This document shows, piece after piece, positions 2,895-34,551 of a stretch of DNA of 64,000 nt. The stretch lies in NCBI GenBank assembly GCA_026398255.1, contig JAPLTG010000029.1, forward strand, positions 62,001-126,000, read 5' to 3'. The DNA is from Verrucomicrobiota bacterium. Lineage in GTDB: Bacteria > Verrucomicrobiota > Verrucomicrobiia > Chthoniobacterales > Terrimicrobiaceae. A model generated the notes under the pieces. The model was not told the origin of the DNA, did not search any database, and worked only from the letters and a program-made list of their open reading frames with translations. Position 1 is the first letter of the stretch; each line of letters starts with the position of its first letter. The translations under genes and the position numbers were made by a program.

Positions 2895-3716
2895 GTGGAT
2901 TGGTTCACTGCGAGACATGTATTTTTGCTGGCTGTCGTTTGTTACGGCGGCGGGATGATTCACTCGCTGTTTCTTTGGCGGCGCGGCTTTTTGCGCGATG
3001 CGCGGGTTGGGTATTTTCTGCTGGTGGCCGCATTTATACTCCAGAGCTGGGCGATGTTTTTGCGGGGCATCTCGATCAAAGCCTGCCCGGTGAACAACCT
3101 TTTCGAGGCGATGCTTTTTGTCTGCTGGGGCCTGGTTGTGGCCTGCCTGGCGTTGGGGATTTCAAGTCGACTGCGGTTCATCGCGGCGTTCGCCTCGCCG
3201 TTGCTTTTTGCGATGGGGGTTTTTGCGCTCATGCCGGCTCTGGATACGGCGCCGACGGGTGCTCCTCAATTCTCCGGGTGGCTCGTGAGCATCCACGCGG
3301 CCATGATTCTTCTGGCTTACGGAGCGTTCGGTATGGCGGCGGTTTCGGCGATCATGTTTCTAACGCAGGATCATAATTTGAAGCTCAAGAAACTCTCGGC
3401 GGTTCTCTCGGTGATGCCGCCGATCCAGCGTCTCGAGAGAGTCTCCTCGGGACTCGTCGTGGCGGGGTTTGTGATGCTCACGCTGGGACTTCTCGCGGGC
3501 GCGGGACTGCCGAGGCCCGAGGGGCTTTCCTATTTTGCGGATGTGAAGGTGAAATGGTCAGCCCTCTTGTGGGTCGCCTACTTTGCCGTGATTCTTTGCC
3601 GCTGGCGGTTTGATCTGGCCGGCCGCCATTTCGCGTATGCCGTCGCCGGGGTTTTCACCTTTCTCCTGCTGACCTTCTGGGGCACAAACCTGCTCTCAAC
3701 CTTGCACAACCCATGA
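2895..3716 (+). CDS. HemX/CcsA-like cytochrome c assembly membrane protein
   Basis: This 273-residue polytopic membrane protein has about eight hydrophobic segments and family signatures such as ILQSWAMFLRGI, CPVNNLFEAMLF, SIHAAMILLAYGAFG and the C-terminal FWGTNLLSTLH. The tryptophan-rich WWD haem-handling motif of true CcsA/CcmF is missing, so a HemX-type protein that modulates or stabilises glutamyl-tRNA reductase is the better match. The gene overlaps hemA by four bases (ATGA), which supports coupled translation and a haem role. The start is a GTG preceded at some distance by AAGGGGAGGG. Confidence 0.78.
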   Translation: MDWFTARHVFLLAVVCYGGGMIHSLFLWRRGFLRDARVGYFLLVAAFILQSWAMFLRGISIKACPVNNLFEAMLFVCWGLVVACLALGISSRLRFIAAFASPLLFAMGVFALMPALDTAPTGAPQFSGWLVSIHAAMILLAYGAFGMAAVSAIMFLTQDHNLKLKKLSAVLSVMPPIQRLERVSSGLVVAGFVMLTLGLLAGAGLPRPEGLSYFADVKVKWSALLWVAYFAVILCRWRFDLAGRHFAYAVAGVFTFLLLTFWGTNLLSTLHNP

Positions 3717-4771
3717 TCGTCACGCTGGGATTGAGCCATCATTCCTCGCCGGTCGAGTTGCGCGAGCGTTTTGCCTTTGCTGAATCGCGGATTCCCGAGG
3801 CGCTTCAAATTCTCCGGCAAAGCGGAAACATCGAGGAGGCCGTGATTCTCTCGACCTGCAACCGGGTGGAAATCTACGCGGTCGCCGCAGACAGCCATGT
3901 GACGCGGGGATTCTCGACGGTGCGGGAATTTCTCGCCGAGTTCCATAACCACGAAGGTCCACTAGGCTCGGAATTCTACGCGCTCACCGAGCCAGACAGC
4001 CTGCGACACCTTTTCCGCGTGGCGGCGGGGCTCGACTCGATGGTGATGGGTGAGACGGAAATCCTCGGGCAGTTGAAGCAAGCCTACCAACTCGCTTTGG
4101 AAAATGGTCACACGGGCGGGCGACTCAACCGGGCGTTCCAGCGAGCCTTCCAAGCCGCGAAACAAATCCGCACCGAGACAAAAATCCAACGCGGCTGTGT
4201 GAGCGTCGCTTCGGCGGCGGTGGGGTTGGCCGAGCACATTTTCAATTCCCTCGCGGAACAAGAAGTTCTCGTCATCGGTGCTGGAGACACGAGCGAGAAA
4301 ACCGCCCGGGCCCTTCTCTCGCGGGGCGCGCGGGGCGTTGTTGTTGCCAACCGCACCGGTGAGCGATCCCAAGCTTTGGCCGAGACGCTGGGAGGCCGGT
4401 CGATTCCTTTTGAAAACTGGGAGCGCGAGTTGGAACGGCTCGATATCGTGATCAGCAGCACGGCCTCGCCCGGATATGTTCTCGACCGGGCGCGCCTCGA
4501 GCCAATCCTGAAGCGCCGCCACGGCCGGGCGCTCCTGTTGATCGACATCGCCGTTCCCCGAGATATCGACCCTTCGATCAACCTCCTTGATAGCGTGTAT
4601 CTCTACAATGTGGATGACCTCCAAGGCATCGCGGACGATTCACTCCGCCAGCGCCGCGAGGAGCTCGATCTGTGCAAAACGATCATCACGGACCGCCTTC
4701 AGGGACTCGTCACGCTGACTTCCGCGCCGAACGCGGGTTCATTTTTCCAAAACGCGCCGACGCGCGCTTAA
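3713..4771 (+). CDS. hemA: glutamyl-tRNA reductase
   Basis: HemA reduces glutamyl-tRNA(Glu) to glutamate-1-semialdehyde with NADPH, the first committed step of C5 haem synthesis. The N-terminal GLSHHSSPVELRERF and the catalytic Cys49 in STCNRVEIYA are present. So are the GLDSMVMGETEILGQ substrate-binding stretch and a Rossmann motif VIGAGDTSE (187-195). At 352 residues it is shorter than E. coli HemA (418), because the C-terminal dimerisation region after VYLYNVDDLQGI is cut to about 60 residues. The ATG overlaps the stop of the HemX-like gene. Confidence 0.95.
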   Translation: MIVTLGLSHHSSPVELRERFAFAESRIPEALQILRQSGNIEEAVILSTCNRVEIYAVAADSHVTRGFSTVREFLAEFHNHEGPLGSEFYALTEPDSLRHLFRVAAGLDSMVMGETEILGQLKQAYQLALENGHTGGRLNRAFQRAFQAAKQIRTETKIQRGCVSVASAAVGLAEHIFNSLAEQEVLVIGAGDTSEKTARALLSRGARGVVVANRTGERSQALAETLGGRSIPFENWERELERLDIVISSTASPGYVLDRARLEPILKRRHGRALLLIDIAVPRDIDPSINLLDSVYLYNVDDLQGIADDSLRQRREELDLCKTIITDRLQGLVTLTSAPNAGSFFQNAPTRA

Positions 4772-28636: not shown

Positions 28637-29461
28637 TCAGCCGCCGGAGAACGGCGGAAGGAGGGCGATCTTGTCGCCAGAACGAAGCGGTTGGTCGCCC
28701 GATGCGAACTCGTCATTCACCGCCAGGCGGGTGGTGGAGAGGTCGAGGCCATGGCGTTGGGAAAGCTCGTGGAGGAGGGCTTCGGCTGTCTCGGTTTTGG
28801 TGCGAATGGTTTCGTCGCTCAGTCCGCGCAGCTCCGAAAGATGCCCGAACCACGAGAGGTGGATGGGGAAACCGCCCGCTTCCTCCAGATCCTGTGGCGT
28901 GTTCAAGTTTGTCAGGGCTTCCGCCGCTCCCTCTGGCAACGCGATCAAATCGGCTTTTTCCTCGATCAGGATGTGGCGCGGGCAGAAGTGGCCACGCGCG
29001 GCGTGACGCTCCAACACCGCCCGCGCGGAGGGTTCGTAAATCGCGCAAAGCGGCTCCGGCAGGCCGTCGCTTGATGAGGCGAACGCGACAAAAGGCGGCG
29101 CGTCGTTTGATTTTCGATGGGCGATCAAGTGCGACAGCACCTGCTCCGAAATAAATGGAAGATCACAGGCGAGCACGAGCCAGGCTGCTTCAGGGTCTTT
29201 TTGGAAAGCCGCGAGGATTCCGGAAAGCGGACCCTGGGCCAACGGGGAGTCCACCAAAACGTCGAGTCCCTGCGCGCCTTCGGGCGCGGTCTGGCCATCG
29301 CGGAGGGAAACAAAGGTGCGTTCGCAGAATTTGCCGAGCAGATCCGCCGCGCGCCGGGCCTGGGTGAGGCCATCAGCCCCGACGACCAGTGAGGCTTTGT
29401 CGCGACCCATGCGGGAGCTTTTCCCGCCAGCAAGAAGGAGGCCGTTCAGACGCGGAGTCAT
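28637..29461 (-). CDS. MobA-MoaD fusion (Mo-cofactor guanylyltransferase + sulfur carrier)
   Basis: The 274-residue protein joins two Moco proteins. Residues 1-195 are MobA, with the nucleotide-binding loop LLAGGKSSRMGRDKA (9-23), QGPLSGILAAF and LACDLPF. Residues about 198-274 are a MoaD/ThiS ubiquitin-like domain ending ALLPPFSGG, so the Gly-Gly thiocarboxylate tail is free at the true C-terminus. MobA adds GMP to molybdopterin; MoaD carries sulfur to MoaE. No separate moaD is seen nearby. The ATG overlaps the moaC stop (ATGA). Confidence 0.9.
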   Translation of the reverse strand: MTPRLNGLLLAGGKSSRMGRDKASLVVGADGLTQARRAADLLGKFCERTFVSLRDGQTAPEGAQGLDVLVDSPLAQGPLSGILAAFQKDPEAAWLVLACDLPFISEQVLSHLIAHRKSNDAPPFVAFASSSDGLPEPLCAIYEPSARAVLERHAARGHFCPRHILIEEKADLIALPEGAAEALTNLNTPQDLEEAGGFPIHLSWFGHLSELRGLSDETIRTKTETAEALLHELSQRHGLDLSTTRLAVNDEFASGDQPLRSGDKIALLPPFSGG

Positions 29462-29961
29462 GAACCAGCGGTGTAGTCGGTCTTTCCGCCGCGCTTTTCG
29501 AGTAGGCGGACGCGGCGAATTTCCATGGCGGGTGAGAAGGCCTTGCACATGTCGTAAACGGCCAGCGCGGCGACACTCGCTGCCGTCAGCGCCTCCATCT
29601 CGACGCCGGTCTTGTGGCTGGTTTTTGCCAGCGCCTGGATTCTTAAAATTCCATTTTCCGGGGGATCAATCGTGATTCGCAAACCTTCCAGCGGAAGCGC
29701 GTGGCAGAAGGGGATGAGATTCGATGTCTGCTTGGCGGCCATCGTTCCCGCGATGATCGCGGTGTGAAAAACGGGCCCCTTCGGCGAGCGGATGTCGCCG
29801 TCCTGCATTTGCGCGACGATTTCCGGAGGCAGCCAAACCTCGGCCTCGGCGATGGCAGTGCGGGCTGAGGGTTGTTTTTCCGAGATGTCGACCATGGCTG
29901 GATTCTTGTTTGAATCCAGATGCGTCCAACTCGGTGCGGGTTCCTCTTTTGGCGGTTTCAT
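29458..29961 (-). CDS. moaC: cyclic pyranopterin monophosphate synthase
   Basis: MoaC rearranges 3',8-cH2GTP to cPMP, the step after MoaA. The 167-residue protein has MVDISEKQPSARTAIAEAEV, AAKQTSNLIPFCHALPL, TGVEMEALTAASVAALAVYDMCK and the C-terminal KRGGKTDY lysines. The ATG at 29961 is chosen because it overlaps the moeA stop by four bases. An upstream start at 29973 would add four residues. Confidence 0.95.
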   Translation of the reverse strand: MKPPKEEPAPSWTHLDSNKNPAMVDISEKQPSARTAIAEAEVWLPPEIVAQMQDGDIRSPKGPVFHTAIIAGTMAAKQTSNLIPFCHALPLEGLRITIDPPENGILRIQALAKTSHKTGVEMEALTAASVAALAVYDMCKAFSPAMEIRRVRLLEKRGGKTDYTAGS

Positions 29962-31142
29962 TTCGCGAACCAAGGAAAGTAAGGAGCGGCCGCACCCTCT
30001 GCAAAACTTTCATCCACTTCGACGAACCCATCGCTACCAGCGAGCCCGGAAAAATCTCCCGAGTTGGCGACTGGAGCGGGAGCCACCGTGCCGTCGGGCA
30101 TTTCCCGGATCGGTAGAAAAAGCGTCAACCCCGTTGGCTTGGTAAATTCCCCGCGCAGAATCCGGCGTGGCCGCATCGGCGACGATTCACTACTCCAGTG
30201 CGACAGCGCGGGAAGGACATATCGGTGTAGGCAGACAAGGGCCGACACCGGGTTACCAGGGAGCCCGAACACCACCTGACCGCCGGGCATTTGCCAAACT
30301 CCCATCGGTTTTCCCGGGCGTTGGGCGATGCCGTGAAGGATCGATACGGCGCCGAGACTGACGAGAATTTCCGGCACCAAATCCCAGCGCCCTTTGGACA
30401 CACCTCCGGTGAGAACCACCAGATCGTTCTCGGACAAAACCGCCGCGAGGCCTTGCCGCAAATCCTCTGGATCATCACGCAGGCAACCAGTCGCTGTTGG
30501 TCCATGCCCCGCCAACTGCAGGGCCGCCGCGAGCGCATGTGTATTGGATCGGCGAATCTGGCCGGCCTTCGGAACCTCCCCAACCGACACCAACTCGTCG
30601 CCCGTTCCGAGAACCGCGATGCGCAGCGGCGCGGCCACCTGAATTTCGGCACAACCACACGCTGCCGCGATGCCAATTTCAACCGGCCCGAGACGGATTC
30701 CAGAGCGGAGCAACGCGTCGCCCGCACGGTGATCCGAGCCTTGCCGATGTATAAACTCCCCCGCCTTCGCCGCTTTTCCGGGTTGAAGAACCGCCACGCC
30801 GTCGTGAAAGTCATACCACTCGCAGGGCAGAACCGCATCGGCTCCGTCCGGCAGCACCGCGCCGGTCATGACTTCGACCGCCGCGTCCTCAGCGGAAGGA
30901 AGGACGATCTGTGGCATTCCCGCAGCCGCCACACCCTGAACCAAAAACCGGCGAGACCCGCTCAATCGCACCGCCAGCCCATCCATCATCACCCGGTCAA
31001 ACGGAGGAAGGTCGTGGTCCGCCGTGATGTCCTGCCGCAAAATTTTGCCAGCTGCCGCCTCCAGCGCGCAGTTCACGGACGGCACCTTTCCTCGAAGCGA
31101 AAAAATCCGGTCCTCCGCTTCGTTGGGAGACAAAGGCTTCAT
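29958..31142 (-). CDS. moeA: molybdopterin molybdotransferase
   Basis: MoeA inserts molybdate into adenylylated molybdopterin. The 394-residue protein has DLPPFDRVMMDGLAV, VMTGAVLPDGADAV, the MoCF-binding motif VVLTGGVSKGRWDLVPEIL and the GLPGNPVSALVCLHRYV loop. MoaB/Mog, the adenylylating partner, is not in the window. moeA heads the overlapping operon moeA-moaC-mobA/moaD-moaE-MOSC/fdhD. Confidence 0.94.
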   Translation of the reverse strand: MKPLSPNEAEDRIFSLRGKVPSVNCALEAAAGKILRQDITADHDLPPFDRVMMDGLAVRLSGSRRFLVQGVAAAGMPQIVLPSAEDAAVEVMTGAVLPDGADAVLPCEWYDFHDGVAVLQPGKAAKAGEFIHRQGSDHRAGDALLRSGIRLGPVEIGIAAACGCAEIQVAAPLRIAVLGTGDELVSVGEVPKAGQIRRSNTHALAAALQLAGHGPTATGCLRDDPEDLRQGLAAVLSENDLVVLTGGVSKGRWDLVPEILVSLGAVSILHGIAQRPGKPMGVWQMPGGQVVFGLPGNPVSALVCLHRYVLPALSHWSSESSPMRPRRILRGEFTKPTGLTLFLPIREMPDGTVAPAPVANSGDFSGLAGSDGFVEVDESFAEGAAAPYFPWFAK

Positions 31143-32067: not shown

Positions 32068-34347
32068 TTAAAACTCGTCGTAGGCAATATGGGAGGGAGG
32101 CACACCGAGATCGGCGAGCATTTTTGTGCAGGCTTTGATCATCATGGGCGGTCCGCAGAGGTAGAATTCGACGCCACCGATATTCGCGTGGTTTTCGAGG
32201 GCTTTTGCAAGAACGACTTCGTGAATGAATCCGGTGTGGCCGGCCCAGCGGTCCTCGTCGAGCGGAGCCGAGAGGGCGGTTTCGAACGAGAAGTTCGGAT
32301 GCTTCGCGGCGAGTTCCTCGAAGAGATCGGTGTAGAACAATTCCTGCCGCGAGCGGGCGCCATACCAGAAGGAAACCCGGCGGGCGGATTTCTCGACTTC
32401 GAGCAGGTGCGTGAGGTGGGCGCGCAACGGGGCCATGCCCGCGCCGCCGCCGATGTAGACCATTTCCTTGCGCGTCGGCTTGATGTGGAAATCGCCGAAC
32501 GGCCCGATGGCATCCACGGTGTCGCCGGGTTTGAGCGCCCACATGTGGCTGGAGCCCGTGCCGGTGGGGCATTCCTGGCCAGGAGGTGGCGTGGCGAGGC
32601 GCACATTGAGGCGGATCGTGCCTTCGCCTGCGTGGCTGGCGATCGAGTAGTTATTGCGCTTCGCGCCATCGGGGTTTTTCGCCACAAGGTCGAAGATGCC
32701 GTGCTGGCGCCAGACTGCGGCGTAGGGATCGGGAATATCGAAGCTGCTGTAGGCGATATCGCCGTAGGCGGGGATAGCGAATTGCAAGTAGTCGCCGGGC
32801 TCGTAGGAAAGCGGGCCGTCCACCGGCTCGAGCACGATCTCGCGGATGAAGGTCGAGACATTGGCCGAGCTCACGACACGCAAGGTGCGGCTTTTTTGTT
32901 CCCGGGCACCGGCGCCGCCGGGCTTGTTGATATTGAGGTAAATTCGATTGTTGCGGACTTCGATCGGATAAGTGGCGAGGCCGCGGCAGATCGGCGCGCG
33001 GGCGGGCGAGCCATCGGTAAGGTTGAAGCGGCCATTGTGCTTGGGACACTCGATGATGCCGCCTTTCACAAGACCCTCGGCGAGATGGTTGTTGCCGTGT
33101 GTGCAAATACCATCAGTCGCATAAAGACTGCCCGCTGCATCGCGGATGAGGGCGAAGGTTTTCCGGCCATGGTCGAAACGGAGGACATCCTCCTTGCCGA
33201 GATCGGCCTGGGCGCAAACCTCCACCCAGCCCTCGGCATCCGGCTTGGCATCGCCCGAGACTAGGCCCTCTACCGCGCGCTCTTTCGGCGGCGGGAGGAC
33301 GCGCTTCACATGATAGGTCGGGTCTTTTTTCTGACGAATGATGGTCGGCAAAATCTCGCGCCAGGCCGAAAGAATCGAAGGATATGGCGGGGGGCAGTCG
33401 TCCTTGACGAGCGCATGGAGCTTGTAAAGGGAATGGAACGGCACGAGCGGGAACATGTGGTGCTCCACATGGTAGTTCATGTTCCAGTAGATGAACCGGC
33501 TGATGGGGTTCATGTAAACGGTGCGGCAGTTCAAGCGGTGGTCGAGGACATTCTCGGCCAAGCCCGCGTGCTGGGAGGTGTTGTGCACGATCATCAACCA
33601 AGTGCCGAAAAAGTGCGGCAGGATGATCAGGAAAATAGGAACCCAGCTGTGCATGGCGACCGACAAGGCAATCGTCGCCGCATAGATCGCCACGATGATA
33701 CGGGCGTTGCGCGTGATTTTTGAAAATTCCGTCTCGGGAATGTAGGTCCGCTCCTCGGCGGAAATTTTGCCAGCAGCATGGCGGAGCAACCCGGGAAAAT
33801 AGCCCTTATAAACCCCGATGGCGAAAAGGCCGAAAAAAAGCTCCCGGAGCTTTGGCGGGCGGGGAATTTGAATTTCCGGATCGCGACCGACGATGATCGT
33901 GTCGCTGTGATGCCGGGTGTGGCTCCAACGCCAGACCACGGATTCTCGTAGAACCATGAATGAGGCGACTTCGTAGAGGAAATTATTCAGCCAGTCCGTG
34001 CGGAAGGCCGTTCCGTGTCCGGCCTCGTGCCAGCGAGAATCGGACGCCGTGGCATATAGCACCGCGTAGGCCGCATAAGGCAGGACCACCCACCAGGCCC
34101 CCCACAGCGCGAAAGTCCCCCACCCTGTCAGGCCCAGAAGGGCGAACCACAAAATCGTGTCGCGGATGGCCGGGCCGTCGCGGCGTTCGAGGAGCTTGCG
34201 CATCTCGGCGCGCGGCACGGGGCTTTGATACCAATCGGCCTCGGCGAGGCCGCGTTCGATCGCCTTCGTGGAATTTTCTCCGGTGAGGCTGTAGTCGAGG
34301 CTCTTGGGCGGACGCGTTAGCGTGGCGGTGGCATGGTTGTCGCTCAT
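32068..34347 (-). CDS. desaturase-Rieske-NqrF-like reductase three-domain fusion
   Basis: A 759-residue protein with three redox modules. Residues 1-350 are a membrane fatty-acid-desaturase domain with hydrophobic spans at about 64-100 and 215-255 and the His boxes HEAGH (107-111), HTRHH (143-147) and HVEHH (293-297). Residues about 372-474 are a Rieske [2Fe-2S] domain with CTH (415-417) and CPKH (434-437). Residues about 487-759 are an FAD/NADH reductase with RNNYSIASH (564-572), GPFGDFH, YIGGGAGMAPLRAH (631-644) and FYLCGPPMM (728-736), closest by eye to the NqrF reductase domain. All ligands are intact, so NADH-FAD-Rieske-diiron electron flow in one chain is plausible. The start at 34347 is chosen because the desaturase N-terminus follows. 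Confidence 0.88.
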   Translation of the reverse strand: MSDNHATATLTRPPKSLDYSLTGENSTKAIERGLAEADWYQSPVPRAEMRKLLERRDGPAIRDTILWFALLGLTGWGTFALWGAWWVVLPYAAYAVLYATASDSRWHEAGHGTAFRTDWLNNFLYEVASFMVLRESVVWRWSHTRHHSDTIIVGRDPEIQIPRPPKLRELFFGLFAIGVYKGYFPGLLRHAAGKISAEERTYIPETEFSKITRNARIIVAIYAATIALSVAMHSWVPIFLIILPHFFGTWLMIVHNTSQHAGLAENVLDHRLNCRTVYMNPISRFIYWNMNYHVEHHMFPLVPFHSLYKLHALVKDDCPPPYPSILSAWREILPTIIRQKKDPTYHVKRVLPPPKERAVEGLVSGDAKPDAEGWVEVCAQADLGKEDVLRFDHGRKTFALIRDAAGSLYATDGICTHGNNHLAEGLVKGGIIECPKHNGRFNLTDGSPARAPICRGLATYPIEVRNNRIYLNINKPGGAGAREQKSRTLRVVSSANVSTFIREIVLEPVDGPLSYEPGDYLQFAIPAYGDIAYSSFDIPDPYAAVWRQHGIFDLVAKNPDGAKRNNYSIASHAGEGTIRLNVRLATPPPGQECPTGTGSSHMWALKPGDTVDAIGPFGDFHIKPTRKEMVYIGGGAGMAPLRAHLTHLLEVEKSARRVSFWYGARSRQELFYTDLFEELAAKHPNFSFETALSAPLDEDRWAGHTGFIHEVVLAKALENHANIGGVEFYLCGPPMMIKACTKMLADLGVPPSHIAYDEF

Positions 34348-34551
34348 GGTGGTTTTTTGGGTGGAGTTTCTGGGTTTTGGAAATGGCCGGAAGGATTTGA
34401 GCAATGACTCAACCCTCCGCAGACAGGAACCACGATAAACATTCGTCGCCTTTTGCCAATGGACAGGAGTTGGGTAAATATGCACAAAATTCGCATTCCG
34501 CTCATCCTGGAACGCTATAACTAACGAAGCTCCAATCCTCCTCACTTTTCC
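34348..34551. promoter_or_regulatory. divergent promoter region between the fusion gene and its AraC regulator
   Basis: The 204-base gap between the divergent start codons must hold both promoters and probably the AraC operator. A TATAAC hexamer at 34516-34521 is a candidate -10 for the regulator, but no convincing -35 precedes it. No clear AraC half-site pair could be defined by eye. Confidence 0.4.

Follow-up and report, generated by a model that had tools for sequence, protein, structure and literature searches.

MobA and MoaD act at non-consecutive steps of Moco synthesis, with metal insertion by MoeA between them. One gene in the analyzed stretch of Verrucomicrobiota DNA (64,000 nucleotides in total, hereafter the window) codes for both in a single chain. 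This raises the question of whether the attached MoaD is a working sulfur carrier, a precursor that has to be cut off, or a remnant. Judging from sequences and genome comparisons, we consider it highly probable that the gene product is a bifunctional Moco-synthesis protein that combines MobA with a working MoaD carrier, the latter pairing with the adjacent MoaE without being cleaved off.

Gene and domain architecture

The plus strand of the region is interrupted by stops; on the minus strand there is one open frame of 274 residues (Table 1). The encoded protein starts with MTPRLNGLLLAGGKSSRMGRDK and ends in ALLPPFSGG, followed directly by the stop (28639–28637). The MoaD tail thus lies at the real C-terminus, as stated in a preliminary description of the locus; the strand, which that description did not give, is minus. 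The ATG of the fusion shares an ATGA with the stop of moaC, and the stop of the fusion is followed after 4 nt by the start of moaE. The sole in-frame possible start near the joint of the two domains is a TTG within the NLNTP motif (ATG at this position in two congeners; no such codon in the other family). Separate initiation of MoaD therefore seems unlikely in this genus.

Table 1. Positions of the fusion gene, its domains and the surrounding Moco genes within the window
Feature	Positions	Strand	Details
mobA-moaD fusion gene	28637..29461	-	274 aa, stop included; single open frame; ATGA overlap with moaC stop; kept in relatives
MobA domain, residues 1-195	28877..29461	-	PF12804 7-155; molyb_mobA 6-193; predicted fold vs E. 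coli MobA Z 21
MoaD domain, residues 198-274	28640..28870	-	PF02597 205-274; moaD 200-274; 1fm0_D match to last residue
C-terminal Gly273-Gly274, free end	28640..28645	-	stop directly after; invariant in 16/16 aligned intact fusions
moaE, 144 aa	28198..28632	-	PF02391 E 2.7e-30; the genome's only MoaE
moaC	29458..29973	-	PF01967 and TIGR00581 above cut-off
moeA	29958..31142	-	MoeA_N and MoCF_biosynth
MOSC-FdhD fusion protein, 433 aa	26893..28194	-	PF03473 49-155; PF02634 186-417
moaA	25154..26179	+	TIGR02666 E 1.6e-107

The claim that MobA and MoaD share one chain is borne out by Pfam, in which both domains of the single minus-strand frame score above the curated cut-offs. NTP_transf_3 (MobA-like) matches residues 7–155 (E 2.4e-30), and ThiS matches residues 205–274 (E 7.6e-13), reaching the last position of the model. 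The NCBIfam model molyb_mobA gives a significant match to residues 6–193 with 86.9 bits, below the equivalog cut-off of 151.85; despite this score, MobA is the best-matching family for the N-terminal half. The NCBIfam moaD model is covered whole by residues 200–274 with 50.7 bits, likewise below its equivalog cut-off (66.15). The MobA-like NTP transferase domain carries both characteristic motifs, LAGGKSSRMGRDK (LAGGxSxRMGxDK type) and ACDLPF (CDLP type), and the ThiS/MoaD beta-grasp domain ends in a free Gly-Gly. The genomic context is that of a MoaD, with moaE directly downstream and a single ThiF-rhodanese E1 in the genome. It is not that of a MoaX-type protein, in which MoaD and MoaE form one chain with an internal, cleaved Gly-Gly: here moaE is separate and the Gly-Gly is terminal.

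A profile built from the fusions matches the solved E. coli MobA (1e5k, 1fr9) as well as E. coli MoaD (1fm0_D, E 3e-11, through the last residue). The structure predicted for the fusion (mean pLDDT 89, pTM 0.73) superimposes on E. coli MobA with Z 21 and rmsd 2.6 over 180 aligned residues. The fold search listed MobA-type folds only, as the MobA domain filled the list; the MoaD fold assignment rests on sequence matches and predicted strands. Both domains have low dN/dS values (0.15–0.34; for MoaD, the value of the closest pair is based on six changes only), and the Gly-Gly is invariant among aligned intact fusions with identity down to 33%.

The minus-strand gene order is moeA, moaC, mobA-moaD, moaE and the MOSC-FdhD fusion; beyond these lie moaA and a gene for an FdhF/YdeP-family oxidoreductase. 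The open frame of moaA extends from 24839, and its start was inferred from the MoaA match, which begins at residue 117. Aligned to solved MoaE, the window MoaE keeps HRxEAF and the VPIWKRE segment. The MOSC-FdhD single chain is common to four congeners (G015, G008, G001 and G003), and in relatives from another family the Moco cluster contains MOSC as a gene of its own. Further along the minus strand, an 825-aa protein (32068–34545) combines fatty-acid desaturase, Rieske [2Fe-2S] and FAD/NAD-binding reductase domains in one chain, which suggests a self-sufficient desaturase or hydroxylase that brings along its own electron transfer chain.

Distribution and origin of the fusion

The single-frame fusion is present in four assemblies of the genus, namely the window genome and G015 (96% identical), G008 and G001 (56 to 57% identical). 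Roseibacillus carries the same single-frame fusion at about 43% identity. Among 387 sampled genomes of the phylum, eleven besides the window genus have an intact full-length fusion; they belong to f15, which is the Roseibacillus family and falls into the same class as the window genome, and to family f38. Within f15, a full-length stop-free match occurs in 84 of 195 genomes (14 genera), and five further genomes have a fusion with a decayed end. The preliminary description had implied that the fusion is rare; this was wrong, as the architecture is common in parts of Verrucomicrobiota. Full-length-looking matches in other phyla (L034–L036, L050, L052, L059 and others) proved to be separate adjacent genes and were discarded.

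Many Verrucomicrobiota, and members of other phyla, have mobA and moaD as two adjacent genes in the same order. Nine of 27 such pairs show an ATGA overlap with an ATG start, and in nearly all the others the distance between the mobA stop and the moaD start is at most a few dozen bases. Since unfused pairs overlap or nearly abut, the fusion was most likely born by an indel at the junction. The few-base overlap in unfused relatives also means that a single erroneous indel, introduced by sequencing or assembly, could have joined two genes that are separate in the cell. The chance of this is negligible, because the same frame recurs in all four assemblies of the genus and in dozens more, including the single-contig G375, G504 and G545; these independent assemblies rule out a frameshift artefact. 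In the tree of MobA domains, a single clade of all the fused sequences together with the unfused L007 is not rejected (p 0.155), whereas a clade of the fused sequences without L007 is (p 0.0001).

The joint itself bears on whether the protein stays in one piece. An AGG sequence lies close to the joint of the window protein, and the MoaD-MoaE fusion MoaX is functional only after cleavage (PMC4326299). By analogy, the chain might be cut post-translationally into free MobA and free MoaD, that is, into two ordinary proteins. We regard such processing as quite unlikely: the tail is already free, so cutting is unnecessary, and neither the AGG nor the linker is conserved among the fusions, the linker between fixed landmarks ranging from 20 to 46 residues.

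Carriers and partners in the host genome and its relatives

Two proteins of the host genome (2.6 Mb in 44 contigs, estimated to be ~100% complete) match the ThiS family, namely the fusion and a ThiS adjoining a ThiH-like gene with BATS and radical-SAM domains. A genome-wide search of this near-complete genome found no second moaD. The observation that no separate moaD is seen therefore holds genome-wide, the other ThiS-family protein being ThiS. The genome also codes for one ThiF-family enzyme, which has a rhodanese domain (MoeB-rhodanese E1), and one MoaE, directly downstream of the fusion. With one other ThiS-family protein (ThiS), one E1 and one MoaE, the genome offers no MoaD candidate besides the fusion. 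The single E1 probably charges both carriers, the MoaD of the fusion and ThiS. G015 likewise has one ThiS-family protein besides the fusion, a ThiS. The two MoCF_biosynth domains of the host genome belong to MoeA and to a CinA-like protein (C27:35102–35611, L239; CinA named by eye). No dedicated MogA or MoaB was seen among the MoCF_biosynth matches, which leaves the MPT adenylation step without an obvious enzyme in this genome.

It might be argued that ThiS serves MoaE, with the fused MoaD reduced to a remnant that is non-catalytic or regulatory. The genome does have one ThiS, E1 enzymes can be shared, and such remnants exist in relatives. However, the tail and the domain are intact here, and remnants occur where another moaD-moaE pair exists, making this explanation very improbable.

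The comparison of relatives reveals intact, decayed and lost forms of the fused MoaD. At each of the 16 intact loci examined, the next gene after the fusion is moaE. In five f15 genomes (G237, G310, G494, G536 and G543), the fused MoaD lacks the Gly-Gly and much of its conservation is gone; no moaE was found near any of these five decayed fusions. In four of the five, the only full MoaE belongs to a separate moaD-moaE pair near moeA; the completeness of the fifth genome is 72%. Such a pair also exists in G540, where the tail of the fusion has started to change (IPHPAGG). The congener G003 branches among the fused sequences in the tree; its MobA has lost the MoaD part, and its genome carries a separate moaD-moaE-moeA cluster. 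The frames of 901 and 607 aa in G003 resemble multi-domain fusions but were rejected, as they arise spuriously from GC-rich sequence upstream of the real mobA and moaD genes. Within genus g57, tail state and partner pattern are associated (Fisher's p 0.01, relatedness ignored); the decayed cases include sister species, and independent events number perhaps two or three.

Since an active tail is kept only where the partner moaE adjoins, the fused MoaD is probably a real working carrier. The simplest reading is that it would act as the working partner of the adjacent MoaE and erode once another moaD-moaE pair takes over. The pattern of intact, decayed and lost domains thus argues for a sulfur carrier function of the fused MoaD.

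The decayed MoaD domains (L188, L189 and L230–L232) are nearly full length and still attached to MobA, with the Gly-Gly gone. The other intact-fusion genomes that we checked have the fusion and a short, ThiS-sized carrier; an additional longer carrier is found in genus g225, G001 and a few others. The longer carrier of Roseibacillus (L131:3224–3499) ends in LLPPMAGG and is located directly upstream of a ThiF/HesA-like gene (3513–4280), away from moaE. Most congeners, with the exception of the window genome and G015, also have a 91-aa carrier ending in AGG (L114–L120). These strong ThiS-family matches were rejected as moaD: they are presumably CysO-like proteins, encoded beside what we take to be a threonine synthase-like gene.

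A benefit of the fusion might be channelling or, as the preliminary description also suggested, a tuned stoichiometry. In the case of channelling, MobA tethered to the MPT synthase heterotetramer could take the cofactor over directly, so that it would be metallated and GMP-capped without release into the cell. The long retention of the fused or adjacent arrangement in the phylum speaks for channelling, which we nevertheless consider unlikely. The two steps are separated by the metal insertion by MoeA, the variable linker length argues against a precise geometry, decayed MoaD remains attached to MobA in relatives, and many relatives use separate genes.

Proposed function and comparison with known fusions

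We favor the uncleaved, bifunctional protein. Its N-terminal MobA would link GMP to Mo-MPT, yielding the guanine dinucleotide cofactor. The single MoeB-rhodanese protein would charge the free Gly-Gly of its C-terminal MoaD, first by adenylation and then by thiocarboxylation; the thiocarboxylated tail would enter the MoaE of the neighboring gene, giving MPT synthase. In the beta-grasp fold the N-terminus points away from the tail, and an attached MobA need not block the reaction. With MobA at the N-terminus of MoaD and the tail free, no cleavage would be needed and the chain probably stays whole. The fusion may persist because it is the only MoaD, rather than via a proven channelling benefit.

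Fusions in the Moco pathway are common in general, and proteins with the present architecture are already in public genomes; the decay of the tail is the most interesting feature. The series of intact, decaying and lost MoaD, tied to the moaE that the genome uses, makes the dependence of the carrier on its partner directly testable. There is also a consequence for annotation, as a search for a stand-alone moaD would score Moco synthesis as incomplete in genomes with the fusion. A partial literature search, mostly without subscription journals, found no paper describing a MobA-MoaD fusion.

Several known proteins are similar in part. MobA forms half of other bifunctional Moco proteins, MobA-MobB and MoaC-MobA (NCBIfam PRK14490 and PRK14500), which the MobA half of the fusion matches best in NCBIfam; their second domain is MobB or MoaC, not MoaD. 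Other lineage-specific fusions of MoaD within Moco synthesis are MoaD-MoeB and MoaD-MoeB-rhodanese, found in Thaumarchaeota and others (PMC11237513, which also covers MoaD-MoaE). In MoaD-MoeB fusions the partner adenylates MoaD, which is a direct interaction, whereas MobA acts two steps later. A C-terminal carrier on a larger protein, whose end can be free, is also found in the fusions of aldehyde ferredoxin oxidoreductase with MoaD (Azoarcus) and of sulfite reductase with ThiS (actinobacteria) (PMC1779556). Unlike MobA, these partner enzymes act outside cofactor synthesis or downstream of it. In MoaX and other MoaD-MoaE fusions (Mycobacterium tuberculosis, Deinococcus, Thermoproteales), MoaD is likewise fused to a Moco-synthesis protein, yet it sits at the N-terminus with an internal Gly-Gly and depends on cleavage (PMC4326299). 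In the window fusion, MoaD is C-terminal and its partner is MobA. In the MoaD-MoaE fusions known so far, the active tail is buried and a protease is needed, whereas in MobA-MoaD the tail is free. Nature thus provides a clean example of a sulfur carrier that probably functions while still joined to a second enzyme.
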